64,000 nt of DNA. Origin: Bolinopsis microptera. Lineage: Eukaryota > Ctenophora > Tentaculata > Lobata > Bolinopsidae. The position numbers and the translations under genes were made by a program. Position 1 is the stretch's first letter. The number at the start of each line of letters is the position of its first letter. Shown piece by piece: positions 4,173 through 64,000 of this stretch. The DNA is taken from NCBI RefSeq assembly GCF_026151205.1, contig NC_087076.1:20329919-20393918 (forward strand), in the 5' to 3' direction. The notes under the pieces are model-generated. The model ran no database searches. It saw only the letters and a list, made by a program, of their open reading frames with translations, and was not told the DNA's origin.

Positions 4173-5282
4173 TTATGACAGCCGAGTCTGGAAATATTCC
4201 CGTGTTTTAGGATGCGTTGCAAGGTATATCAGGGGGTTAATAATACCATTGGTGTAGTATACTGTTACAGTCAGTATTTGTGATACTTCATAGCTGTGCG
4301 GTATGTCCCAAATAACTGTTATCACAGTTGGCGAGTACGTTAGCAGACCCGTTATTATAATCCCAGACGCTGTCACCAGGAACCGACCACATTTCCGTCC
4401 CGTACTGATAATGATGGACATCATGGTCCCGTACAAGAGAAGGATAAGGAAGAAGGGAACAACGAAGAAGCATATTTCTTCAGCATGTTCAATTTTACTT
4501 GATCCTGAAATAAGACATCTGTGAAATCTATCGCTGTATTCGATAATCCATATCCCTGTAGTATAAACTATTATTTCATAGATCAGTAGAGCAAGAATTG
4601 GTAGCCAGTTTGCTACAAACATAATGACACAAGTCTTCTTGGTGATGATGGAGCTGTGTCGAAGTGGCAGTATAATAGCCACAGCTCTGTCTACAGTCAG
4701 AGGGAGGAGGACTATTGTACCGGAACTCGCCACAGTTGTCAGACACATTTTGTAAAGAGCACACGATAAGGTAGCAGTTTTATTTGGGGCGCCCACAAAC
4801 TTGCTGTCTATTATCCCTAGTCCTCTGAAAATGCCCAAGAGAGAGACCAAGACATCGCTGACTGCTACGTTGATGATGAAATAGCCCTGGCAGTTGGAAA
4901 GTCTGATTTTACGGAAAGCAAGGAAGTAAATCACGGAGCCACTGAAGATGATACCGAGGAGTCCTATAACTGCCAGCACCGAGCCCTGAGAATATTAGTG
5001 AGGATAAGAATGTTAATTATTTGTCAACTACTCCAGGAAAGAATGTTAATCACCAATCTATTTGTAATTTAATAATAGCGACTGTTGTGTCGGGTGGCCC
5101 CGAAATAGCTGTAAAAACGTTTAGTTTAACGTTTGATCAACTGTCTACACTGATATTTTTCTATATTAATTATCCTCACAGCTACATATTGAATAATTAG
5201 AAACACTTACGTTGACTATCCTGAAGGTACATACAGTTTCTTTCTGTGTTATACACGTGTGGTTTTCTATGTTGAAGCCCAT
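4173..5282 (-). CDS. Class A (rhodopsin-like) G protein-coupled receptor, paralog B
   Basis: This is a tandem duplicate of the receptor at 1409-2764, with the same architecture. Exon 1 (5282-5211) encodes 24 residues starting MGFNIENHTC and ends at a GTAAGT donor. A 225-bp intron follows, then exon 2 (4985-4173) after a CAG acceptor in phase 0. The predicted product is about 294 residues. The TM2 NVAVSD motif, VDRA after TM3 and NPLIYLA in TM7 are all kept. The main difference is at the C terminus: this copy stops right after the helix-8 region (ending QTRLS), whereas paralog A carries about 60 more residues of cytoplasmic tail. Loss of the tail would remove most arrestin/kinase phosphorylation sites. 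The two copies share long stretches of near-identical DNA, so the duplication is fairly recent. Confidence 0.88.
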
Positions 5283-17669: not shown

Positions 17670-20600
17670 ATAATAATAATAATAATTCTATACAGTTACA
17701 TAATTGAAACAATTATGGCCCCTTATTGTGGGCAGAGTATGTGTCTTTATTGAATTGTCCTGATATAAACTTATCTGAGTGACTGCATTAAAATAATTTA
17801 AGGTGAGTTAAAACTTTAAGACAATAGGAATAAATACTAGGACCTAATAAAATGAAAACAAAATGCAGCCATCTAATTTGTTGTTGAGCTTTCTCTTTTC
17901 CTACGGTTGACTAGAGGAACCATCTTTGGCGAGTATTAGGAACTTAGACCATTACAAATACCGTGCTGTAAGTTTGCAAGGCATGTGGACTAAGTGGGTC
18001 GAGAGTACTCAACTTGAAAGTGGGTGTTGAGAATCCTCAACTATACTAAAGATAATGATGTTCAGAAAATGAGGCAGTAGAGTGAGTAGTAGAGGCTGAA
18101 GAAGAATAAATGTCACAAGAGATGAGCACTATAATAATCATCTTTATGATAGTTCACCAATGGCAATTTGTGCTAGAGAGCGGAAGGCAGTGATGCTGCT
18201 ATCACTATCATCTCTTAAGATAGACCATGATGGTTGGTCATTAAAGGAATGGTCCTGCAGGGTTTCCCTGTAAGAGCAGCTGCACAGTGGACAGTAGAAG
18301 AGTCTGTGATAATTGGTGTCTAATACCTTACAATTTGGACACTGAGGGTCGCAGTTGTTGGCTACCCTTGCCTGGAAGGCTGCAAAGGTGATGTCATGGC
18401 CGTGTAGGAGAGACATAACCTTAGTATCCGTGTTTCTGCTTGAGTAGCGAGGAAATAATCGTTTGCTCCTTTCATCAATGTTATCCAGTATCTGACCCTC
18501 ACTCTGATTTATTCTTGGGTTCAGCAGGAGATGTTTATTCCAAGTAAACTCCATGAAGCGGATTATTTCTTCTTTTGAGTAGCTGACAACATCGTTCTGG
18601 ACACTAGTCAGAAGGTCTATTTTGCTTCTGTTTAGTTCTTTGGACCCAGTTTTCCACGTTAGAAACTTACGTATCTCGTCAATATGGTGCTGGTATCGGT
18701 GTGCCTTTGCCTCCTCTAGCTGCAAGATGAGCCCTTGCATAAATGGGTCACTTGTAAGTGCTTTTATTATAAATTTTATAGTGACCATCTTGTAGGATAT
18801 CTCAAGGGGTGGAATCCCAAGCGCAACAGAGGTCAAATCTTTGGGAGGATGGTGAGTGGCCCCGCTTATCTTCAAGAGGACCCTGGCATAAAAGTCTTTG
18901 AAAGTGTCGAGGTTATCTTTTAGCCATATAGGAGCAGCATATAGAAGTTTTGTGAGTACCACTGTTCTGAAGAGCATTCTGAGTGAGCTTGTATTCAGAC
19001 CTCTGTGGCGGGTGGAGTTTTGGGTGATCCTGTGCCAGGCAAACCAGCATTGCTTGAGTTTGAATTTTGCGTGACCCTTGAATGTGAGCTTGTTGTCGAT
19101 TGTTAATCCGAGAACAGTTGATTGATACGTATAGGTTATGGGTCTGCTGCCAATAATTAACGGACTTAAGGTTGTGACATCAGGTGCAGTTGAGGATGCT
19201 GGTGCGATCATTATGCACTCGGTTTTGTTTTTATCACAGTTCGGGATTAGTTTCCATTTACTGCACCAGACATGAAGGTATTTGCACATCAGCTGCATTA
19301 TCCGGTGAGCACGTATAGGATCCATGTGGGATACTGCTATGCTTCCATCGTCCGCATATTTGAATAGACTTGAGTTAGAGCTGCATTCCAGTGGAAGCTG
19401 GTCCTTACATAACATATCCGAGATGTAGAGGATAAATAGCAGAGGTGCAAGGACAGAGCCTTGGGGAAGCCCAAACCATCCACATGAGCGTTGGAATCCG
19501 AGACTGTTGTCAACCCTCAGCCGTACTTTGCGAGATAACAGGAAGTTATTGATTATACGCAAGATTTTTCCTTGTATTTGGTATTTGTTGAGCTTGAAAA
19601 CCAGGCCTTTCACCCATACACTATCAAATGCTTTACTAAAGTCGATACATAGTAGGAAAGTAGTGAGTTTTTTCCTCTTGCATGCATCTAGAGTAGCAAC
19701 TAATTTATAAAGATACCTTGCAGTATTTCTTTGAGGTCTAAAGCCTTCTTGTTCTTCGTCGAGTAAGCCCTCTAGTTCACAATGGAGCTTTATTCTTCGT
19801 TCCAAGATCTTTTCTAGAAGCTTTCCAACATATGATGATATCGATATTGGTCTGTAAGCAGAGGGGTTCATGTAATTATCCTTCCCATCCTTTTTGATGA
19901 AAGTGACATTGGATACGTCCCAGACCCATATACCAGTGTCAAGGACAAGATCAAAAAGTTTTGTTAGGATATGAAGAGCTGACACAGGCAGATGTTTAAG
20001 GATTCTTGGATGAAGATCGTCAGTGTCAAAACTTTTAGCACTGCTATTGTGAGCCTTCAGTGCCGAGGTAACTTCCTCTAGGCCTATTTTTCCATTCAAG
20101 TGATCATTAATTACTGGGTCTAGTTGGTCAGAAGAGAACTGGGTGGATATAATGTTGTCATAGCAGCTATCGATATCCTGTTCGAAAATACGATCAAAAC
20201 TGCCTCCATTCATGTGTTCACCAGAGAAGAATGATTTGTACAGGATGTTTTCTTTCTGAGTTCTGTCAGAGTGGAGAATGCCACCATCCATGAGGTTTCC
20301 CATGTACTCGTTAGACTTATTGGTCAATGTCTTCTTATAATTTTTCCAGAATGTTTGAGATTGTGCAACATTGAGATTTTCCAGTTTTTGATGAATCCAT
20401 TTGTTTTTTTCGGATATCAAGGTATTAGAGAACTCCTCCTTTGCTTGTTTGTGGAGGGAGACGTTATGCGGTGTGTAGCTGGTTTTCATCGTTTCCTGCG
20501 CAGCTTGAAGAGTTCGTGAGAGGTCTGTAAGGAGAGAGTTCCAAAAAGGTTTTGAGTGGATGCTGGCTTTCTTGAGAGGGATCCACTGATTACCAATTGC

Positions 20601-20932
20601 AGATAAAGTGTTTTTGAAGTCTTGCCACAGCTTTAGAGGGTCTATGTAAGAGTTGATCCTACCAGTTATTCCAAGGAGAAGGGACCTGTTTAGTGATTCA
20701 CGCCAAGCATTCCAGTCTGTTTTTTCAAGGTCCCAGTAAAGAAGAGGAGATGCAATTTGAGCAGTTTGTGCATGACAGAATTGGTGGATGATTGGTAAGT
20801 GACCTCTATTAGGAGCACCTGTGAAAAGTTCACTTTCACTGTCAATACTGGACGATTGGTATCTAGCCTACATACTTTGCCCTTCAACAAAGCAAGGTCA
20901 ATGATACTCCCACCATTATGGGAGACAAATGT
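17670..20932 (-). mobile_element. LINE RT1 (5'-truncated) inserted into RT2
   Basis: The element starts near 20930 in the last part of an EEP endonuclease domain (FVSHNGGSIIDLALLKG on the minus strand), continues through a reverse transcriptase and ends in an ATT trinucleotide repeat (17666-17687 read on the minus strand). A simple-repeat 3' tail and a C-terminal CCHC-like motif suit the I/Jockey/R1 group. It sits inside the C-terminal coding part of RT2. I could not identify a clear target-site duplication. Confidence 0.8.
18144..20867 (-). pseudogene. RT1 ORF2 remnant: end of endonuclease, reverse transcriptase, CCHC
   Basis: The reverse transcriptase that would copy the element's RNA at the target site. 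The frame is open from just after a TAG near 20868 to the stop at 18144. The first ATG is at 20489, giving 781 residues, but the upstream part is also coding (GAPNRGHLPII resembles the endonuclease SDHxPI block). A one-base frameshift near 20870 separates it from the FVSHNGGSIIDL segment. Reverse transcriptase motifs seen: SAYRPISISSYVGKLLEKIL, CIDFSKAFDSVW, GLPQGSVLAPLLF and the catalytic YADD. Near the C terminus CPNC...H...C is a probable zinc knuckle. It is 5'-truncated, so inactive as an element. Confidence 0.85.
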
Positions 20933-22574
20933 ATTGGTATTCGGAAACAGTGAACATTCTTATAATATTTGGTGGTGCAGTGTTAGAATAAACTTTGTGC
21001 ATTAAGCATAATATACATTTAGCTATCACGTTCGGTAAAGCTAATACTTCTAGTTTATTGAAAATTTCCTTTGTGTGTGAAGGTGTGCTATTCAGATCTT
21101 TGTCATAAAAATAGCGGTGGTATTGGTTATCTGCAGCGCGAATGCCCTTTTTCTGGGCCGAGAAGACTCTTTTAACGGAGTTTAGCGATCTTGTTCCCCA
21201 AACTGTGCAGCAGTAGTACAAGTGAGACTGAACAAAGCTGTTGTATATCAACTTGAGTGCTTTGTTAGGTACTGAGCCTTTGAGTTTGTAGAGAATACCC
21301 GCATTTCTAGATACTTTAGTGGCTAAATGTCTAATGTGGGGGGCCCAATTTAGCTTAGTATCAATGATCACGCCAAGAAACTTTTCGTGATAACTTTGCT
21401 TTAGTCGCTCACCTCCCATGTAGATTTCTATATCCTTAGTTTTTTTATTTGTAAAGATCATATATTTAGTTTTGCTAGCATTTAATTTAAGCCCGTTATT
21501 AGTAGCCCAATCAATTATCAAAGTCAGAATCTCATTCACCAATGCATTAAGTTGTTCAAATGTATCTGTACTTATTATTAGGTTTGCGTCGTCAGCGAAA
21601 TAAATATGTTTAGCTAAATTAATAATCTGAGGAAGGTCGTTGATGTAGATTATGAACAGAATTGGTCCGAGAATGGAGCCCTGTGGTACTCCGTAGTTAA
21701 GTTTGAGGTGAGAGGACTTGCAGTTGTTGACGCTCACGTATTGCTCTCTATCGGTTAGATATGAGTGAAACCAAGATAAAGCCAACCCCCGAACTCCATA
21801 GTGCTCAAGTTTTCTCAGAAGAATACTGCTGTCAACCATGTCAAAGGCCTTGCTGTAGTCCAATAGAAGCAGTGCTGTGACCTGCTTTTTTTCTAGTGCC
21901 CTGTGAATATGGTTTTGGGCTTCTAGTAAAGCATGTTCGCAGCTGTGCCCAGCCCGAAATCCGTATTGAGAGTCAAATAGGATTTTCTCTGTCTTTAAGT
22001 GATCTAATAGTCGCGCTTGCATAATTTTTTCAAAGATTTTTGAGAAACAAGAGAGTAGTGAGATAGGTCGATAGTTTGAAACTTCAGCACGTGACCCACC
22101 TTTGTGAAGTGGAACTACTTTCGCGATTTTCAATTTATGCGGAAACTTCCCCTGATGTAGAGACGCAGAGACTAGGCAGCTAAGCACTGGTGCAAGTATA
22201 TTGCTCACTTTTTTCAGGGGAAGTATACTCATATCAGAAGTCGACTTAATCTTCAAACCCTTAACTATTTCAATTATTTCTGATGCGGACGAATCTTCTA
22301 GATTCATGCTCCGCTGGCATTTGCTATCTTGAGTTTCTGTTACGATAGTCCTGCCCTCAGAGCATACGAGACCATTTTCTCTCTTAAGAGTCTCAGCTAT
22401 ATTGCAGAAATAGTCATTGAAGCTATTCGCAATTTGCTGAGAATCTGTTATCTCGCTCCCATTATAGTTAATTTTGTTTATCTTAATTTTGCCTTTTTTC
22501 TTTCTGTTTAACAAGTTATTAACCATTTGCCATGGAAGACTCAACTCTAAAGATGCACTTATGATGATTAGCAT
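20916..22574 (-). pseudogene. RT2 ORF2 remnant: reverse transcriptase, N-terminal and catalytic part
   Basis: A 552-codon frame. Visible motifs are the pre-RT segment (NGSEITDSQQIANSFNDYF), NYRPISLLSCFSKIFEKIM, LLDYSKAFDMVDSSIL, YGVPQGSILGPILF and FADD, a CR1/Jockey-like reverse transcriptase. The endonuclease domain that should precede it is missing. The C terminus breaks off at EYQY, where RT1 has inserted; the last residues before the stop come from the inserted DNA. The missing end lies at 17668-17388. Confidence 0.88.
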
Positions 22575-22600: not shown

Positions 22601-23303
22601 TACACTTTTCGAACTCAGCCGATATGGCGCCAAAGTTTGATTTGGTACTTTTGGCCTTTTCCCCGAAATAAATTCCAAAAGATGACCTTCATGTTGGTTC
22701 ATTTGGTCCGCAAAGTCTAAGTTAGACAATTTTGTTCAAGAATCAAGTATTAATAACAACGATAATTTGGAAAGATTTAACAAAGTTAAAAAGCTAAAAG
22801 GGCAGTTTTAATTATCGAATCTTTGTTTACGTGAACGAATTACTTTTGATGCGACGATTGTTGAAATTGCTAATAATAACATTACTTTCTTCAAAAAGCC
22901 TGTAAAGTTATGAATGGTTTGGTTGTGTATGGAATAGACAGATTTAAATTAAGTAAATCTAGCGATAACATTTTCAGGATCTAATCTCAAAATATTGATG
23001 GAAGCATTATCTTCTTAGACAAAGAAAAATATTCTAGTAGAGTGTAGACAAAGGCAATTTCTGGGGACATCAATGCTTTAATAAAACGTAGATCTTTAAA
23101 AAATAATTAAGTGACTAAAAATTCCTATCATTTTTGTAGTTAAGTTTTGGTCTATGTAGTTCTGGGAAATCAAACATCGTTACCCACCTCTGTGTGGATC
23201 ATTAAAAAAGCACTGTCGATCTCTCACAAATTTTCTGATGACCTGGCCAAATGTTCAGCTTGAAACACCTAAAAATATAATTTAAATTAGTTTGAGAATA
23301 GAA
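22601..23303. other. Spacer between LINE RT2 and the AlkB-LINE
   Basis: About 700 bp of AT-rich DNA with no ORF of note, lying between the truncated 5' end of RT2 and the 3' tail of the next LINE. I see nothing recognisable in it. Confidence 0.55.
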
Positions 23304-23763
23304 GAATTAGAATTAGAATTAGAATCAAATTTACACAGCAATACAATAAGAATAAAAAATAATTTAAGAAGCTTCAATCTGCTGTGCAGGACATTCAAGT
23401 CAGTCAAAAACTGTTAGCAGAACACCCTTCTAGGGACATAAGGATATAGCATGTAAATTGTAAAACAAAATAAGTAATAAATTAATGAGTGGTAAAATAA
23501 GATATGATTTAACAGTGAACTGTGGGCATGAAGGTAACAATTAATGTTGAAAATTACATAGATGCCCACTTTGGAATTTCGTAAGTAATATTATTTACAG
23601 TTATACACAGAGAAGTATAGAACAACATTAGAATGGCAATGATAACAAATGGGAACGAATAAAGGAGATGTTTAAAGTTCTATACTTCTGAAAATAGGTC
23701 ATATAACGCAGGGGGCCTTTCCACCCGACAAAAACTCCAGCACCTTAAAAATTGTTTCAGTTG

Positions 23764-26700
23764 TCACATAGCTAGAGTGTAGAAATAGTCGAAACTATTG
23801 TTTATTTCATAGGATGAGACTCCTTGAATTACATCTGACATAAATTTAGATTTCATACATTGTGAGAAATTTACACTACATTCTATAGTCCTTATGTTCT
23901 CTGGAATTGTATTCCAACATTTTGCACCTAAATATGTAAAGGTTTTGTGTGTTCTGGATTTGTGAATATAAAGGTTGCACCTCTCAGCATCACGTGATCC
24001 TCCGGATACATAAGAAAATTTACCGGTGAATGATGATGGTGCAGCCTCATTAAGAATTTTATACATATACGTTGATAGATGGAGTTGTCGTCTTAAGTGT
24101 AAGGGTAACCACTTCATATTTCGATATACATTTACTGATGGTTCCTGCCAATGAACATCCAGTGCAATTTTTGCTACTTTCTTGTATAATATATCAAGAG
24201 AATTAAGTCTGGTTTTGGCAGCCCTAGACCATATTATATCCAGGTAGTCAAATTGGGGGAGCATAAGAGCATTTACAAACATTTTTCTATATTTCAGTGG
24301 AAGAAGATTTTTCGACCTATATAATGCCCCTATTCTTTTAGCAATTTTTGATTTCACATAATCAATATGGTCTTGAAAGTTCAATAAATTGTCTATCATG
24401 AGACCTAAATATTTTTGAGATTTAGTTTCTTCTATAAAAAGGCATTCTTTTTCCAAATCCAGAGGGATTGACAACGTGTCCAGATTAGGATATCTATCAA
24501 ATACAATGAATGAAGATTTTGCAGCATTTAGTCTCAGCTTGTTGATTCTAAGCCATTCATACACAATTTTCATATCCTTAATTACATTTTCATATATGCT
24601 TCGGGAAATGTTATCAAAATATAGTGCACTGTCATCTGCAAATAAGTAAACAGTAGATTGTGTGCAATTTCTACTGAGATCATTTATGAATAAACTAAAT
24701 AGAATTGGTCCTAATATGCTACCCTGTGGCACACCTGTTTTAACAGGGAGTGATGTGCTTACATTACCACGTATTTTGGTGTGCTGCTTTCTGTCCCCAA
24801 GGTAGCTTTTGAACCACTTTATGACAAAGCCATCAACTCCATAATACTTAAGTTTTTTCAATAAAATATTATGGCTTACTGTGTCAAAGGCCTTTTTAAT
24901 ATCTAAGAATACAATTGCAGGTTTCTTCTGTGATTCCTTAGACGTAAATATTTTATCAAATAGATTAAGCATTAGAAAAGTGGTGGAATGATCTTTTCTA
25001 AATCCATACTGATTGTTGGTAAGCAGTTTATTTGTTTCAACATACTCTGTGAGCTGTTGGTTAACAAAATATTCTATGCATTTTCCAAGTAGGGGGAGTA
25101 TGGATATTGGCCGGTAGTTATTTGGATCATTAGGGTCACCAGTTTTAAGAATTGGAGTGACTGATGCAATTTTACATGCCAACGGCATTGTTCCACTTTT
25201 CATACTAAGGTTTATAATATGAGCTACTGGATCGATGATTTGGGGAATAATATACTTATATACTTTAATAGGCATGATATCGTTAATAGATTTATCTGAT
25301 GGTATACTGAGTATATATTCTTTTACTTGTTCAACAGTCACCTCTTCGAATACAGAGAGTTTACACTCTGGTGGAGGCGGCATATATTCTAGAAAGTCGT
25401 CTGAATCCTTTTCCTTAATTGATTCTTGTAATATTGTACCAACTGTGGCAAAATGCAGGTTAACTCCGTTAACATTTAAGTTGCTTGGGGAAGAGCTACT
25501 TATTTTTCCAGGTAAGTTTGAAGCATGTTTGATAGTTTTCCAAATACCTTTCAAATCGTTTTTTGCACTTTTCACAGTAAGGTCCTGAACAATATTTGTA
25601 CGTCTGTTTTCTTTGGATAATTTTGTCACATAGTTTCTTTGGGGACGATAGTTATCCCACGAAGTAGAGCATTTCTTATGTAGTTCACTTTTTCTGCAGT
25701 TACATATTCCATTAATACACTTACACTTGAATTTGTTTAATTGTCCTAAACACTTTTTATACTTTCTGAAAAGCATCTTCTTCTTCCGTATTTCTGCCAG
25801 CAGTATTTTAGAGGGATTACAAAGAAAGTTACTATTACATTTAATCTGTTTAGGTGGACAGTAATTATCATACGATTCCTGGATGTGATGATTAAGTCCA
25901 TCTAGCGCATGGTCTACATTAGTACAGCTTAGAATATTACTGTAATTACTGCAGGATCCCAGAAAATAGCTTAAGGCTTTTAGATTGTTTAAGGAGTGGT
26001 CTCTGATAAGGACCTTCTGGAATTTACTAGCTTTATTTACTTTAAAGTCGAGAACACATTTGAGAGCTTGGTGATCTCCTATTCTATCATCAAGTACTTT
26101 ACACTCTATGAAATTAGAGTAACAGTTAGTCATTACAACATCTATTGTGCTCTGCGTTATTCTACCATCTAAGTTTGCAACTCTAGTAATTCCTGTAACA
26201 GTCTGTATCATTCCAAAGAGCTTCATTGTTATATCTAACTTTTTATAATCTAGATCAGATAAAGAGTTTTGGTTAACATTAACATCGCCAATCCATATTA
26301 CTTTCTTACCTTGAAGTTTCATCATACATTCAGTCATATAATCAAGGAAAGTATCTAGATGACAAAAGTTTTGTGATCTGTAGAAGCAGCAAATGTAAAG
26401 ATTGGCGTCCTTGAGTTGTATCCATATAGCTTCGATTTTAGAAATATCAGAGTAGGTTATATCTAAATTGAGTAATTTGTGGTTAACATTTTGGTTGATC
26501 AATATACCACACCCTCCTCTTCCTCTATCGTTAGGTCTATCACACCTTATAAAATCAAAGTTTAAGGGGAAGTTAAGTGTACTAGTGTCTATATCAGATT
26601 TAAGGTTTGTCTCATTAATTCCAATTATGTCAAGCTTTTCGCGAAATATTAGCTCCTGTAGTTCGAGAGTTTTTGCCAGATTAGTCAGGCCACCCTGTAT

Positions 26701-26782
26701 ATTACATAGACCAAGAGAGAGATTATCGTTTATTGAGGTACGAATAAGGTTAAACCAAAGCTAATGGGGAACAAATCCACAT
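23764..26782 (-). CDS. LINE ORF2: EEP (APE-like) endonuclease and reverse transcriptase
   Basis: The enzyme that nicks target DNA and primes reverse transcription. The frame is open from 26761 to the stop at 23764, about 999 codons. The N terminus reads LSLGLCNIQGGL, LDIIGINETNLKSDI and GRGGCGILI; then come VIWIGDVNVN, STIDVVMTN and RIGDHQALKC. These are the ordered EEP endonuclease blocks (N, E, G..., D-N, D, DH). The reverse transcriptase follows: NNYRPISILPLLGKCIE, FLDIKKAFDTVSHNILL, TGVPQGSILGPILFSLFIND and FADD. No ATG lies near the start in this frame. An ATG at 26782-26780 in the adjacent frame would need one base change near GTTTAACC. So the start is either a one-base error, reinitiation or a non-AUG codon. 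Confidence 0.88.
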
Positions 26783-27051: not shown

Positions 27052-28332
27052 TTAACACAAGTGAGTTACATATTTGAGATGCTTACCAAGCCTGGCAATT
27101 CCTAACTTATTAAGGTGCACATTGTCATGGCCCCTGCCAAAATACTTGTCCTTTCTATTATAATTTAAAGTAAAGAGATTATTTTCATGTTCTGTGTTAA
27201 TGTATATGAGCCCATGCTTATAACACATATTCTCTAAGTATCGATTAAGTCCCTGCACTATAATGTTCTTACTAGTGACAGCTCTAGGCAGAATATTTAA
27301 GATATATATTTTTGCACTATTAAATTCTGCCCACAATTTTTGAACAAATTCTTCCATGTCATTGGTGGCACTGTTGAAGTTCATTGTGTTGAGGTCAATT
27401 GGATCAACACAGTTAGTACCAGTTAGTAAAACAACCTTTTTAACCTTTTCTTTGTTGAGAACTTTGAACTGACTGTCGCTAAAGAGTCTTTGGGACATTT
27501 GGATTGAGTTGGCCCCTGGGTAGAAAAATACTTTGGCCTTCTGAGATGAAGAGCTCAACAGTTTTTCATTCAGATGCCTGAAGATGCTGCTGCTGATATA
27601 AACTGTGCTCACATCGTTGGGTGTCTCCTTTTCGAACAATTGTTGTCTGTTAACATGCCGCCCTGATTGATGCAGATGGGGTGGTGGAGATGTATAGGGT
27701 GGGGTTAGAGGTCGGTGCTGATAAGCACCATTCGTTTTCCTTGATGGATGAACTATAAACTCGTCTTCTTGATAAGGTACATAGCCGCTGGAGTTGGAGA
27801 TGTTTTCATATGGGTCATGGTAATTGTCATTGCACATGTTGGTTGGTGTACTTGTTAATCTTTGGACAACAGCTACAGGTTTGATCAGTCTGAATGTGAT
27901 ACTGATCCTTTTGTTTGTACAAGATGGTTGAGTACAGATTTCATGTCTGTAATGAAGCTGGGATTTTTTAGACATGATACAAACATCCCCATGCTTTAGA
28001 TCTAGGGCAGACACCACTTTTCCTGTTTGAATTTCTGTGAACTGCATCGTCCTAGAGGCACCCAGAGAAACTGTAACAATATAAGAGTTTTCATCGATGC
28101 ATTCTTCATTATCACTATGGATAGGCATGCATTCTGTCCCAGTACTGTAGTAGTTTACGAGAGCACTGTTGTAAACATAATCCGGGAGTAACACTTCAAG
28201 ATATGAACAGATAGCAGCCAGATAGGACTGATGTGGTATCTCCTTCGCCTCGTGACTTCCCCCATTATACACATATGGGAAGTCCCCAAAGTAAGCTGTT
28301 TTCCTATTTTGAAACTGGTGGCTAAAATCCAA
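27052..28332 (-). CDS. LINE ORF1b: AlkB-type 2OG/Fe(II) dioxygenase joined to SGNH esterase
   Basis: A 426-residue protein with two domains. Residues about 12-150 match the AlkB fold. The HxD iron ligands are H72 and D74 (IHSDNE), the distal histidine is H130 (YRHEI), and 2-oxoglutarate is bound by R142 and R148 (R-x5-R in KRISITFR). VSLG and the LKHGDVCIM turn are also in place. AlkB enzymes oxidatively remove methyl groups from nucleic acid bases. Residues 150-240 are a Pro/Ser-rich linker. Residues about 241-426 match an SGNH/GDSL esterase: block I is degenerate (ISSSI, Ser249 at the nucleophile position), block III is TGTN (N307), block V is DNVH (D403, H406). SGNH domains are known from CR1 ORF1 proteins; the AlkB fusion is the unusual part. 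All key AlkB residues are present. Confidence 0.88.
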   Translation of the reverse strand: MDFSHQFQNRKTAYFGDFPYVYNGGSHEAKEIPHQSYLAAICSYLEVLLPDYVYNSALVNYYSTGTECMPIHSDNEECIDENSYIVTVSLGASRTMQFTEIQTGKVVSALDLKHGDVCIMSKKSQLHYRHEICTQPSCTNKRISITFRLIKPVAVVQRLTSTPTNMCNDNYHDPYENISNSSGYVPYQEDEFIVHPSRKTNGAYQHRPLTPPYTSPPPHLHQSGRHVNRQQLFEKETPNDVSTVYISSSIFRHLNEKLLSSSSQKAKVFFYPGANSIQMSQRLFSDSQFKVLNKEKVKKVVLLTGTNCVDPIDLNTMNFNSATNDMEEFVQKLWAEFNSAKIYILNILPRAVTSKNIIVQGLNRYLENMCYKHGLIYINTEHENNLFTLNYNRKDKYFGRGHDNVHLNKLGIARLGKHLKYVTHLC

Positions 28333-28349
28333 TTCTCTCAGGAAGATGT

Positions 28350-28970
28350 CTAAGGAGAATTTTTGAAACGGTGCTGATCAATGAGTTCAACAGGTGGTAT
28401 GATAATGTCAGGGCTTTCGTCATTTACACTTAAGGCCACACTAGATATGGGTGTTACATCTATTTCAGCATAATACTTGCCACTCCATGGATTGACAGAT
28501 CCTGTACTCCCACTGATTTGATTTTCTGTGTTGTTGGAAATGATAGAATCTGGTGCTTCAATGATGCCATCACTATTGATTAGCATGAAAGATTCAGGCA
28601 CCTCGCATTCACTGTCATATTCAATCTGATCGTTTTCAAATTCTGTCTGAACTGCAACATCTGAACACCTATCCAGGACAGCCCGATAATCTATTGACTG
28701 ATTGGTACTTTGATGTAACAACGTACCATTAATCTCTGCTATAGTCTGAGAAGTTTGAACAATGTCTTCTAGGATGATCACTTTCCGCTCGAGAAACTTG
28801 ACATGAGATTTGAGTGCAGTACAGTTTTTGCATTTTTGATCACATTCCGACAATAGTTTTCCAAAAAATGTTTCCATTGAATCGTCCATGATATTGAGTT
28901 GATGATTTGAATTAAGTTGTTGATTTGAATTGAAGCAAATTGAAGAGTTCACATGTGAGATTTGTTCCAT
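28350..28970 (-). CDS. LINE ORF1a: small coiled-coil protein with a CxxC-type cluster
   Basis: A 206-residue ORF immediately upstream of the AlkB-SGNH ORF (17-bp gap) and presumably on the same LINE transcript. Residues about 39-75 hold a cysteine cluster (CDQKCKNC) followed by a heptad-like stretch (LKSHVKFLERKVIILEDIV) that could form a coiled coil, the usual trimerisation feature of LINE ORF1 proteins. The rest is acidic, Ser/Asn-rich and probably disordered. I recognise no named domain. Its likely role, by position only, is RNA binding or particle formation. Confidence 0.7.
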   Translation of the reverse strand: MEQISHVNSSICFNSNQQLNSNHQLNIMDDSMETFFGKLLSECDQKCKNCTALKSHVKFLERKVIILEDIVQTSQTIAEINGTLLHQSTNQSIDYRAVLDRCSDVAVQTEFENDQIEYDSECEVPESFMLINSDGIIEAPDSIISNNTENQISGSTGSVNPWSGKYYAEIDVTPISSVALSVNDESPDIIIPPVELIDQHRFKNSP

Positions 28971-29066
28971 TCCATTAACGTTACATTCGTATTACATTCG
29001 TATTACTTTGGTCATACCTCAATAAATGTAATAGATTTGTAGTGTTGTAATTAGTTTAAAAGAGTA

Positions 29067-29080
29067 TTTGATTGTTAAGA
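29067..29080. repeat. Left 14-bp direct repeat (target-site duplication) of LINE RT4
   Basis: TTTGATTGTTAAGA here recurs exactly at 30823-30836, on the other side of the LINE fragment. A 13-bp version also occurs inside the element's 3' end, beginning near 30722. Confidence 0.7.
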
Positions 29081-30719
29081 GGTTAGTGAAGAAGGGACCA
29101 CACAAGGTGATCCACCTGCCATGGGATTTTATGCCTGTGGTACAATACCATTGATTGATGCAGGAAACATTGAGAGAAAGGTGACTCAGATCTGGTATGC
29201 TGATGACTCTGCTGCTGGGGGAAAACTGGAGGAAATAAGGAAGTGGTGGGATAACCTCTGTATTAAAGGACCACTCTTTGGATACAACCCTAAATCTTCT
29301 AAAACATGGGTGATAGTCAAGCCTGAGCACGAAGAGAAGGCAAGAACCCTATTCCCAGATGTCAATGTGACAAGCATTGGTCGACGATATCTGGGCAGCT
29401 TCATTGGAACAGACCAAGGAAAAGAGGCTTTCATTGAGGAAAAAGTTCAAGAATGGTGTCGTGATCTTAAACAGTTAAGCGATATAGCATCAAGAGAACC
29501 TCAAATAGCATACAGTGCATACATGTATGGGCTTAGTAAAAGATGGAACTATGTGTGCAGAACTACCCCAGGAGTTGCAGATAGGTTCACTCCTCTAGAA
29601 CAAGTAACACGTGATGAGTTTATCCCAGCTATCATTAACAGGCTGTTTAGCTGCACTGATGAACTAAGGAACATAATGGCTCTACCACCAAAATATGGAG
29701 GATTGGGTATACCAGTTATGATGGAAATGGCAGACCGAGAGTACAATTTCTCATGTAAAGCCACAAAACCCCTTAAAGAAGCTATTCTCAAGCAGATAGA
29801 CAACTACACAGAGGACTGGAGACACAGTAAAGAAGTGAAAACTGAGATAACGACTGAACGAAATCTCTTCTATCAACAAAAACAAGCAGAAATATGCCAG
29901 GAGCTTGAGTCAACACCACTGGCAAAGTTGATGTTCCAACTAGCGGCTGAGAAAGGGGCAAGTGCTTGGTTAACAGCACTACCTTTAAAAGAGTATGGAT
30001 ATCTGATGAATAAACAACAGTTCTCAGATGCAATAGCTCTCAGATACAACCTGAACTTAAAGGACTGCCCTAAGACATGTACGTGTGGCCAGAAATACTC
30101 AGCAAACCATGCGCTCATCTGCAAGCTTGGTGGATATGTGTCACTGCGGCACAACTCGCTGAGAGACACCTTTGCAGAACTAATGAGAACTGTGAAATGC
30201 AAGGATGTGCAGACTGAGCCAGTTCTTCTACCAGTTGATGGTCTAGAATTACCAAAGGGAACAGTCCTAGGAGACCAAGCCAGGCTGGACATTTCTGCAA
30301 GATCGATTTGGAATGCTTCAGAGAGGGCATTTTTTGATGTAAGGGTATTTCATGCCCCAGCCCCCTCCAATGCAAGCAAATCGATACCAGCAATGTACCT
30401 GTCCCATGAAAATGAGAAAAAGCGATGTTACAATGCAAGGGTTCTTGAAGTGGAGAAAGGAAGCTTCACACCTTTAGTGTTCTCGACTTCTGGTGGAATG
30501 GGTGGTGAAGCTGAGAGACTGGTCAAGAAACTGGCCAGTAAGATGGAGTGCCACACTGGCCAGAGGTACTCAGACGCTGTAGGATACATCAGAAAGCGCC
30601 TTCGCTTTGAAATCCTTAGAACAACAGTGATATCTCTCCGTGGAGACAGAGGTGCGAGAAAAAACATTGTTGATATAAACAGTCTAGATCTTAACTTGGA
30701 GCCACAAGGCCAAGGGTAA
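29079..30719 (+). pseudogene. RT4 ORF fragment: reverse transcriptase C-half and probable restriction-like endonuclease
   Basis: The open frame starts just after an in-frame TAA at 29076. It begins with EEGTTQGDPPAMGFY, a reverse transcriptase block, followed by IWYADDSAAGG, the catalytic YADD. Then comes a thumb-like region. A cluster CTCGQKYSANHALIC (C-x-C...H...C) precedes a segment with GDQARLDISAR and FFDVRVFHAP, then EKKRCYNARVLEVE, which resembles the PD-(D/E)XK restriction-like endonuclease placed C-terminally in R2/NeSL/Utopia-type LINEs. The N-terminal half is missing. The 532-codon ATG frame starts at 29121. The endonuclease assignment is inference from motif order. Confidence 0.75.
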
Positions 30720-61200: not shown

Positions 61201-64000
61201 TAAAAACCGAAAAAAAAAGGGGAAGGTGCCCCCGGGAAAAGTTTTTGGGGGGTTTTTTTCCCGGGCCCCCATTTTTTAAGGGGGGGGTTAACCAAAAAAA
61301 TTTTGTTTTAAAAGTGGGGACTTAAAAACCCCAAAAAAATTTGAAAACTTTTTGGGGGGAAAAATTGCTCTTTTAAATTTTGGGGGGAAAAATTTAACCG
61401 GGACGTTTAAAAAGGGGGGGGAACCCCTCCCCTTTTTTTTCCCCCTAAAGGGAAACTTTTTTTTTCCCCCCTTCATTAACCCCCCGGGGGGCGGGGAAAA
61501 ACCCCTTCCCGGTTCCCCGGGGGAAATTGGGGAGGGGGCCCCCCCAAACCCCCTTTTTTTTCCCCCCTTTTTTTCGGAAGGCCCCCGGGGAAAAACCCCC
61601 CCGAAAAAAAAAAAAAAACTGGGGGGGACTTTTAAACCCACAAACCCCAAAGAGAAAAAAAAGATTTTCCCAAAACCCCTTTTCCCCCCCCCCTTTTGGG
61701 TTTTCAGTGGGGGTTTTTAAAAAAAATAAAAAAAACCCCAAGTGGGGTTAATTTTTTTTCCCCCCGGGGTTTTTTTGAAAACCCCCTTTAGGGGGGTTAG
61801 GGGGAAAATTTCCTCCCCAAGGTTTTTTAAAAATTTTTAAAGGGAAAAGGCCAAAAATTTGCCGCATTTTTCCCCAAATTTTTGGGGGGCCCCCCCCCAA
61901 AGGGGAGGGGGAAAAAAAAGGTTTTTAAGGGAGTAAAAAAAAAATTTTTTTGGCCCCCAAAACAAAAAGGGAAAAAAAAAATTTTGGGGAAAACTTTAAA
62001 AAAAAGGGGGGGGAAAAAAAGGCCCCCGACCCCCCTTTTTCAAAAATTTAACAAAAGGGAAATTTTATAAAAAAGGGGGGCCTTTTCGGGGAATAAAAAT
62101 TGGAAGGGGCCCAAAAAAGGGCCTTTTTTTCCCTTGGGGAAAATTGGAAAATTGGGAAAATTTTTTCCCCAAATATTCCCGCCCCAGGTTGGGGGGGGTT
62201 TTTCCGGAAAGGGGAAAAGTTTGGGCTGTGGGGCCCCCCCCCCAATTTCCCCCTTTTTGGAAAACACCCAAAAAGGGGGAAAACACCCCCCCTGGGGGGG
62301 AACGCGGGGGCAAATGGAGGAACATTTTCCCCAAAAAACCACGAAATTGGGGGAAAAAAAAAATTCCCTTGGGGCCGGGGGCCCGGTTTGTTTGGGGGAA
62401 AGGGGAAACCCCCCCATTTTTTTTTTGAGGTTTGGGGTTTTTTCAAAGGGGTTTTTAAATTTTTTGGAAACCCCTTCCATGGGGGGGGGGGGGGAAATTT
62501 CCCAGCAAAAAGGCAAAAACCGGAAAACCCCCAAAAACTTGGTTTGGGGTTTGTCCCCCCCGTTTGGGGGCCCCTTTCCCCTTGGTTTTAAAAGGGGGAA
62601 AAAAGATTGAGGGGGAAAAATTTTTGGGTTTCCCCCGGGTTTCTTTTTTTTTCGATTAAAAAAAAACCCCAGGGGGGGAAGGGGGGGCCCCCCGGGGAAA
62701 AAATTGGGGGGGGGTTTCCCCCCTTTCCCGGGGTTCCCCCCAAAATTAAAAAAAGGGAAATTTTTGGAAAAAGGGGCCCCCCCGGAAAAACATCAAAAAC
62801 CCGGGGCCCCTAAAAACCCCCAAAAATGGGGGGTTTTTGGGTTTTTTTTTGGCTGAAAAAAAGGGGTTTTTTTACCCCCGGGTGGGGGGAAACCCCACAA
62901 ACCCCCTTTAGGGGTTTTCACGCCCCCCCAAAACAAAAATTTTTTCCCAAGTAGCAAAAAATTTACCAAAACCCAAAAAACCCCAAATTTTCCCCCCCAT
63001 CCCCCATTTTGGTTTTTACGGGGGCCCAAGCCCACTTTTCGGGGGAAAGGGAAAATTTCCCCCGGGGCCCCCCCATTTTTTTCCCAAGGGCAAGACCCTT
63101 TTTTGGGGGCGGGAAAAAATTCCCCGGGTTTCCCCCAGAAAATTTTTCCCCCCCCCTTTTTCCCCCCTTTATTCCTCCCGGGGGCCGGGTGATAGTTTTT
63201 GAAGTACTTCTTACAAAAAACCTTACAAACCCAAAAACCCCTTTGTTTTTTCGCCAAAACCCTGAAAAAAAAAGAAAAAAAATTTTTTGGGAAAAAAAAC
63301 CGTGGGGGGTTTTGAAAAAATTCCCCGGGAAGAAATTTTTTAAAAACAGAAAAAACCCCCCAACCCCTTTTTTTAAACGGGGGGAAAAAAACATCGGGAA
63401 AAATTTTTCCCCTTGGTTTGGAAAAAATTTGGGGGGACCTTTTACCCCCCCCCGGGAAAAAAGGAAAGGCCCGTAAAAGGAATTTTGGGGGTTTTCAAAA
63501 AAAAAAACGGCCCTTAAAAAAGGGGGGGGGGGTTTGGGTTGGGGGCTTTTTCCCAGGGCCCAAAACAAAAAAACGTTTTTTTGGGGTTTTTTCCCCCTTT
63601 TAAAAGGGGGCCCCAAAAAGGGGGAAACATTTTTCCTTTTGGGAAGTATTTTTAAAAAAAAAGGCCGTAATTTTTTTAAAAAAATTTTTCGGTTTTTTTT
63701 CCCAATTACCGGGGGGCCCCAAAATTTTTCCAAAAAAACTTTTCCCCAAATTTTACCCCCCTTTCCCCCCCCGGGAAATTTTCCCCCCTTCGGGGCCGGG
63801 GGCCCCTTTCCCTCCCCCCCAAAAAAACCAAAAATTAAAAAAAAGGGTCCCAAAGGGAAGGGAAAATTGGGGGGCCCCGGGCCCCCTTTTCCCGGTTGGA
63901 TTTTCCAAATTTTTTTTGGGCCCCTTTGGGAAAAACCCAAAAATTTTTAAAAAAAAAACCCCCGGGGGGGCCCAGAAAATTTTTTTCCCCCCAAAATTGG
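55200..64000. other. Homopolymer-dominated sequence, probably base-calling or assembly failure
   Basis: From about 55200 the text is built largely from runs of three to nine identical bases (GGGG, AAAA, TTTT, CCCC blocks in succession), and the effect worsens toward the end, most of all after about 60200. Open frames there encode only F/P/G/K-rich text. A few patches (for example 57500-58700 and 59840-60150) look closer to normal DNA. No gene, repeat family or RNA can be supported. Confidence 0.85.

Follow-up and report, generated by a model that had tools for sequence, protein, structure and literature searches.

A 64,000-nucleotide (nt) stretch of the ctenophore Bolinopsis microptera (contig NC_087076.1, positions 20,329,919 to 20,393,918; the whole stretch is called the window, and positions are counted from its first nucleotide) carries on its minus strand a long interspersed nuclear element (LINE) whose first open reading frame (ORF), ORF1, joins two enzymes in one protein. 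The ORF1 protein (ORF1p) is ordered as an N-terminal helix, an AlkB dioxygenase domain of the ALKBH2/3 type, a flexible linker, and an SGNH esterase, and the AlkB active site is retained in about 200 related proteins. The interpretation that we favor, with a probability of roughly 0.55, is that ORF1p coats the element RNA, that its AlkB domain removes methyl groups that would block the reverse transcriptase (RT), and that the esterase acts at membranes, such that the element would supply its own template-repair enzyme; every step beyond the domain assignments is one that we infer. The initial annotation had proposed an AlkB-SGNH fusion inside a LINE with a complete AlkB active site, and both proposals are borne out, the fusion by profile matches, predicted fold, and relatives, and the active site by all five ligands of the H-x-D...H iron triad and R-x5-R motif in the window copy. 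The relevant features of the AlkB domain are as follows, with residues numbered in the 441-amino-acid (aa) open frame at 28377-27052 (minus strand) that spans AlkB and SGNH.

27877..28377, minus strand: AlkB-type Fe(II)/2-oxoglutarate (2OG) dioxygenase domain, ALKBH2/3-like
28111..28119, minus strand: Fe(II) ligands HSD (H87-x-D89), H in 86/86 and D in 86/86 ungapped rows
27943..27945, minus strand: Fe(II) ligand H145, 86/86 ungapped rows
27889..27909, minus strand: 2OG-binding R157-x5-R163 (RISITFR), 86/86 and 87/87 ungapped rows

The relatives fall into two groups. The first consists of 89 proteins that are 29-60% identical to the window ORF, of which 68 are 540-660 aa long and nine bear Mnemiopsis leidyi names; the precomputed Pfam column lists PF13532 (AlkB) in 85 and PF13472 (SGNH) in 22 of the 89. 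The second consists of P0089 and P0210-P0328, the best 120 of 133 matches, with P0089 counted in both groups. Its members have a PHD-like N terminus (profile match to the third PHD finger of MLL1, 3lqh, 8.7e-4) followed by a long helix (residues 226-279), and the contigs of 29 of the 120 measure 6.0-7.5 kb, as a full-length LINE would. In metagenomes, several second-group proteins go under no other name than 'alkylated DNA repair dioxygenase AlkB'; P0264 is assigned to a metagenome-assembled genome (MAG) of Moritella, perhaps through eukaryotic contamination. DNA of the relatives was not found in IMG/VR scans with the ORF or with either group's alignment, and among GTDB genome contigs the sole match was a bacterial SGNH hydrolase (L001).

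The five ligands do not vary. In the first group, H, D, H, R, and R are unchanged in 84/84 rows, these being the rows without a gap at those columns among the 90 (89 relatives and the window), and the window row is included; in the second group they are unchanged in 120/120 listed rows. Mean column identity in each full alignment is 16%, and within the AlkB region of the first group the mean majority fraction is 0.57 over 149 columns, 19 of which are constant. The possibility raised beforehand, that related copies would mostly lack the AlkB domain or carry it broken, is thus not what these relatives show. This pattern also bears on whether AlkB is present purely as a nucleic-acid-binding or structural part, with its chemistry no longer of consequence: many ORF1 proteins serve chiefly as RNA-binding scaffolds, but strict retention of the Fe(II) and 2OG ligands at such low overall identity makes that explanation improbable.

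The profile and structure searches advised by the initial annotation identify the domain further. The predicted fold is the AlkB double-stranded beta-helix (best PDB fold score, 2.8e-13), and the PDB profile matches of the first group are to ALKBH3 (8.3e-26), ALKBH2 (2.1e-24), E. coli AlkB (3.1e-7), and ALKBH8 (1.1e-5); the second group gives the same top order, ALKBH3 and then ALKBH2, with ALKBH8 third (1.3e-14). ALKBH5 and FTO have no sequence match to the first-group profile up to an E value of 0.1 or to the second-group profile up to 0.01. Judged by sequence, the domain is therefore closest to ALKBH2/3 among solved AlkB proteins. In ALKBH2/3, an acidic residue two positions after the Fe(II)-binding Asp (Asp+2) touches the methylated base, and these enzymes work on 1-methyladenosine (m1A) and 3-methylcytidine (m3C). 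To compare this position we pooled 211 sequences (89 and 119 relatives, the window ORF, and two human fragments), of which 205 (84, 119, and 2) were used; P0085 and P0086 have no AlkB match, and four pieces of <90 residues were excluded. Glu occupies Asp+2 in 83/84 first-group and 118/119 second-group sequences. An upstream segment common to ALKBH3, R.....G...Y.Y, has its Arg, Gly, Tyr, and Tyr in 84/84 of the first group and, where aligned among the 119 rows of the second, Arg in 86/86 and Gly, Tyr, and Tyr in 98/98 each. The retained Glu favors m1A and m3C over N6-methyladenosine (m6A) as substrates.

The m6A question matters because the chief competing explanation has the AlkB domain removing a methyl mark by which the host silences the element, either m6A on element RNA or N6-methyladenine (6mA) or other methyl marks on DNA, and thereby freeing the element from control. 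There is a precedent, in that mark erasure has been proposed, according to passages of PMC9289625, for an AlkB encoded by an orchid Ty3/gypsy element. However, the nearest solved structures here are ALKBH3 and ALKBH2, the two profiles leave ALKBH5 and FTO unmatched within the E values given above, and the acidic Asp+2 residue tied to m1A and m3C recognition is kept almost throughout both groups; we consider mark erasure unlikely, although it is the best placed of the alternatives.

The LINE-like block, read 5' to 3' on the minus strand, consists of a 206-aa ORF, the overlapping 441-aa frame, a 998-aa frame, and an (AATTCT)n tract, the first of these parts being arranged as follows.

28350..28970, minus strand: N-terminal part of ORF1 ('ORF1a'), 206 aa, with a probable heptad helix (VKFLERKVIILEDIV...) and an acidic stretch
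28350..28377, minus strand: 28-nt overlap of both ORF1 frames and frame break of the window copy, between stop-to-stop ORFs 28991-28350 and 28377-27052
27628..27876, minus strand: predicted disordered linker between the two enzymes, with pLDDT (predicted local distance difference test) scores of <50 at residues 171-219 and 234-248
27055..27630, minus strand: SGNH (GDSL-like) esterase domain, with Ser264, Gly288, Asn322, Asp418, and His421

The heptads of ORF1a have hydrophobic residues at seven of eight a/d positions in the best-fitting stretch of the helix, a raw count with no shuffled control. The initial annotation had placed the AlkB-SGNH fusion in an ORF of its own between ORF1a and the RT ORF; the fusion does lie there, but a separate third ORF is rejected, as the N terminus, AlkB, and SGNH share one frame in the relatives. 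An ORF1a-like segment is joined in frame to AlkB in P0003, P0011, and P0004, at least 60 residues precede the position of the window's AlkB-frame start in 77 of the 89 first-group relatives, and several of these, read individually, carry a comparable helix at the N terminus, in frame with AlkB. Because relatives carry both parts in frame, we conclude that the N-terminal ORF and the AlkB frame are a single ORF1 that is broken between 28377 and 28350 in the window copy, and, on this alignment, that the AlkB-SGNH frame is the C-terminal two-thirds of ORF1. A programmed frameshift at 28350-28377 was also considered; no standard slippery site was seen by eye, and the relatives can be read without need of one.

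The esterase assignment rests on the Ser, Gly, Asn, and Asp-x-x-His blocks and an SGNH fold, all of which are present. In ungapped rows of the first group, Ser is found in 90/90, Asn in 88/88, Asp in 86/87, and His in 85/87, and the ORF1 profile matches the structure of the zebrafish ZfL2-1 esterase (4c1b) at 3.9e-7.

Downstream of ORF1, the block has the remaining parts of a non-LTR (long terminal repeat) retrotransposon, that is, an ORF2 with endonuclease and RT on the same strand, beginning approximately 290 nt after ORF1.

23764..26760, minus strand: ORF2, 998-aa open frame, apurinic-type endonuclease (Exo_endo_phos, 6.6e-6) and reverse transcriptase (RVT_1, 1.2e-39)
23303..23325, minus strand: (AATTCT)n, probable 3' tail of the element, 3.8 copies with 100% matches
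23285..23293, minus strand: candidate 3' target-site duplication AAACTAATT, the longest word common to both flanks examined, weak at 9 nt
29049..29057, minus strand: candidate 5' target-site duplication AAACTAATT, also 9 nt and weak, with a possible 5' end of the element near 29048

PDB matches of ORF2 are to the R2 and LINE-1 ORF2p reverse transcriptases. We conclude that the element is an endonuclease-RT non-LTR retrotransposon, CR1/L2-like, its clade being placed by architecture alone. The start of ORF2 (26700-26760, minus strand) has no ATG at the usual N-terminal position, and a non-AUG start is possible; nine of 11 RT relatives compared have Met at or near the usual start, and P0090 and P0091 (97-98% identical) are called from a later ATG. 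A 30-nt inverted repeat (77% complementary; 26729-26758 and 28997-29026) pairs the start of the element with that of ORF2 and could reflect chance or RNA structure.

To ask how general this arrangement is, ORF1 and RT relatives were linked through contigs of identical nucleotide size, which is an indirect link, with offset controls giving the expectation. The ORF2 search scored the 7984 candidates sharing most words and gave 2626 RT relatives, of which the best 120 were used. The top one shares 97% identity across 86% of the query, and a Tenacibaculum MAG is the source given for another, P0116. Initially, seven of the 89 ORF1 relatives had a longest contig equal in length to that of one of these 120 RT relatives, with 0.88 expected. 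One pair, on a 4006-nt contig, was dropped because ORF1 and RT cannot fit side by side within it, and two others are on contigs of >500 kb, which demonstrates co-residence and not adjacency. Four feasible contigs of 5.4-5.9 kb hold an ORF1 relative as well as an RT relative, with 0.59 expected and four reached in 1/200 offsets; chance could account for as many as one of them. The single RT contig match of the second group (6842 nt) had no control run and is not used as a link. Together, the window and the four contigs suggest, through this indirect link, that more than one family has an AlkB-SGNH ORF1 adjoining an endonuclease-RT ORF2. A chimeric assembly, or a host AlkB gene lying beside a LINE, might be entertained given that the last 2.5 kb of the window is poor-quality sequence and that the RT linkage outside it is indirect, but it is made very improbable by PF13532 in 85 of the 89 relatives, accompanied by the SGNH serine in 90/90 aligned rows, by Mnemiopsis proteins annotated on 11-21 Mb contigs, and by the element-size contigs with both ORFs.

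How might the two enzymes serve the element? ORF1 proteins package the RNA of their element, and this ORF1p would likewise coat its own. The AlkB domain would then remove Watson-Crick-face methyls (m1A and m3C) from the element RNA, and possibly from nascent cDNA too, that would otherwise halt the element RT during target-primed reverse transcription; the SGNH esterase would tether or release the particle at membranes. To make a long insertion, a LINE RT has to copy its RNA, and a protein that coats this RNA and clears such lesions would therefore be of advantage. According to passages of PMC12140624, RTs in common use are hindered by 1-methylguanosine (m1G), m1A, m3C, and N2,N2-dimethylguanosine (m22G), cDNA synthesis by the R2-type non-LTR RT used in OTTR is still impeded by m1A, and AlkB treatment takes off m1A and m3C. 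The membrane step follows the proposal for ZfL2-1, whose esterase is argued, in the part of PMC3905857 that treats it, to serve membrane targeting.

Several points weigh against template repair. First, the window copy does not have the intact ORFs of an active autonomous element, ORF1 being frame-broken and ORF2 lacking an ATG at its usual start. Second, identities of ORF1 and RT do not correlate across seven linked elements (rho -0.07, Mantel p 0.61), nor do those of the AlkB part and RT (rho -0.20, Mantel p 0.86; rho -0.16 with eight elements, the impossible pair still included), and co-inheritance is therefore unproven; post hoc removal of the pair P0007/P0205 gives rho 0.54 and Mantel p 0.063 for ORF1 and RT, from which we claim nothing. 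Third, the substrate of ALKBH2 is DNA and those of ALKBH3 are DNA and RNA, so likeness to these enzymes leaves the substrate unsettled. The AlkB domain could act on DNA, removing alkyl lesions from single-stranded target DNA or from cDNA where the element integrates, much as ALKBH2 does in host DNA, an explanation that we regard as unlikely and rank a little below mark erasure. Fourth, the gain after AlkB treatment is modest for intact tRNAs in the data of PMC12140624 that we draw on, up to approximately threefold.

Two further RT-bearing frames directly downstream of the element, at 18144-20867 (RVT_1, 2.7e-31) and 20916-22574 (RVT_1, 7.8e-40), both on the minus strand, suggest clustered or nested insertions. 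On the plus strand, a 546-aa frame at 29079-30719 abuts the 5' end of the AlkB LINE; it has a YADD motif by eye and no Pfam match up to an E value of 0.01. Farther away, 1409-2470 and 4173-4994 (minus strand) are two consecutive rhodopsin-family G protein-coupled receptor frames (7tm_1, 8.5e-17 and 9e-16). The segment 61500-64000 has long homopolymer runs of all four bases (read at 61500-62500), like low-quality read ends, with similar translations to 63950, and is probably assembly junk.

Little is understood of LINE ORF1 proteins in general; the one described here combines two enzymes with testable chemistry. AlkB in orchid LTR retrotransposons is already known, as are, in the sections of PMC4120745 relevant here, the esterase and PHD types of CR1/L2 ORF1. 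Among the papers listed in searches of openly licensed literature, none describes, by title and opening lines of the abstract, a LINE ORF1 with AlkB, and an earlier report, for instance in a review of comparative genomics or in Repbase, is possible. 'AlkB' is absent from the text of PMC4120745 and PMC6431247, and 'dioxygenase' from PMC3905857; PMC9246332, in which these subjects are named most often among the papers listed, handles Mnemiopsis, AlkB, and retrotransposons separately in the portions bearing on them. We put at about even odds the broader proposal that these proteins form a large, old, previously undescribed class of LINE ORF1, built of a helix or coiled coil, in some cases accompanied by a PHD-like finger, and of AlkB and SGNH, in which an ALKBH2/3-type enzyme repairs RT-blocking methylations on its own template in cis. 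If template repair is correct, methylation damage to RNA genuinely restricts retrotransposition, a limit met by mobile elements as it may have been by plant RNA viruses, and the element offers a natural RT-partnered demethylase of the kind now added by hand before sequencing modified RNA. If mark erasure is correct instead, it points to a methyl-based defense in the hosts, ctenophores included.

Comparison with known systems places the element at an intersection of several. With human ALKBH3 and ALKBH2, the top PDB matches by sequence and structure, the AlkB domain shares its fold, Fe(II) and 2OG ligands, and Glu at Asp+2, but it is 22-27% identical to them in fold alignments and is part of a retrotransposon protein. 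Esterase-type LINE ORF1 proteins (CR1/L2 type IV; ZfL2-1, PDB 4c1a and 4c1b), as set out in part in PMC3905857, similarly have an N-terminal helix and SGNH domain before an endonuclease-RT ORF2, whereas the window ORF1 has an additional AlkB domain between helix and esterase. The second group resembles the PHD-type CR1/L2 ORF1 in its PHD-like N terminus, with 3lqh also being the top match of L2_5 in Table 1 of PMC4120745, but the combination of PHD-like finger, helix, AlkB, and SGNH is absent among the ORF1 types in the pertinent sections of that paper. The plant RNA viruses (Flexiviridae and Potyviridae) are likewise RNA-based replicons with an embedded AlkB of similar fold, and these domains may repair methylated viral RNA, according to part of a review (PMC10649972). 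Across viral polyproteins, those of plant viruses being a part of them, fold scores reach 2.2e-15 (Pinela virus), and the best cellular AlkB in PDB scores 2.8e-13, values from different libraries that are not directly comparable; several plant viruses and giant viruses score near 1e-14 to 1e-13, among them Blackberry vein banding-associated virus (3.6e-14) and Grapevine virus T (3.8e-14), and the PDB sequence-profile comparison contains no viral AlkB. These scores neither support nor oppose the special likeness to plant-virus AlkB that the initial annotation had proposed from the HSDNE context. The viral domains differ in sitting within replicase or other viral polyproteins and in involving no reverse transcription. 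The Phalaenopsis Ty3/gypsy element is, as this LINE is, a retrotransposon with its own AlkB-type domain, and its AlkB ORF has m6A RNA demethylation activity in vitro; on the account given in passages of PMC9289625, it is of LTR type, with an extra ORF for an m6A (ALKBH5-like) enzyme in one orchid lineage, whereas the element described here is a LINE, with an ALKBH2/3-like AlkB inside ORF1p and in many divergent families.
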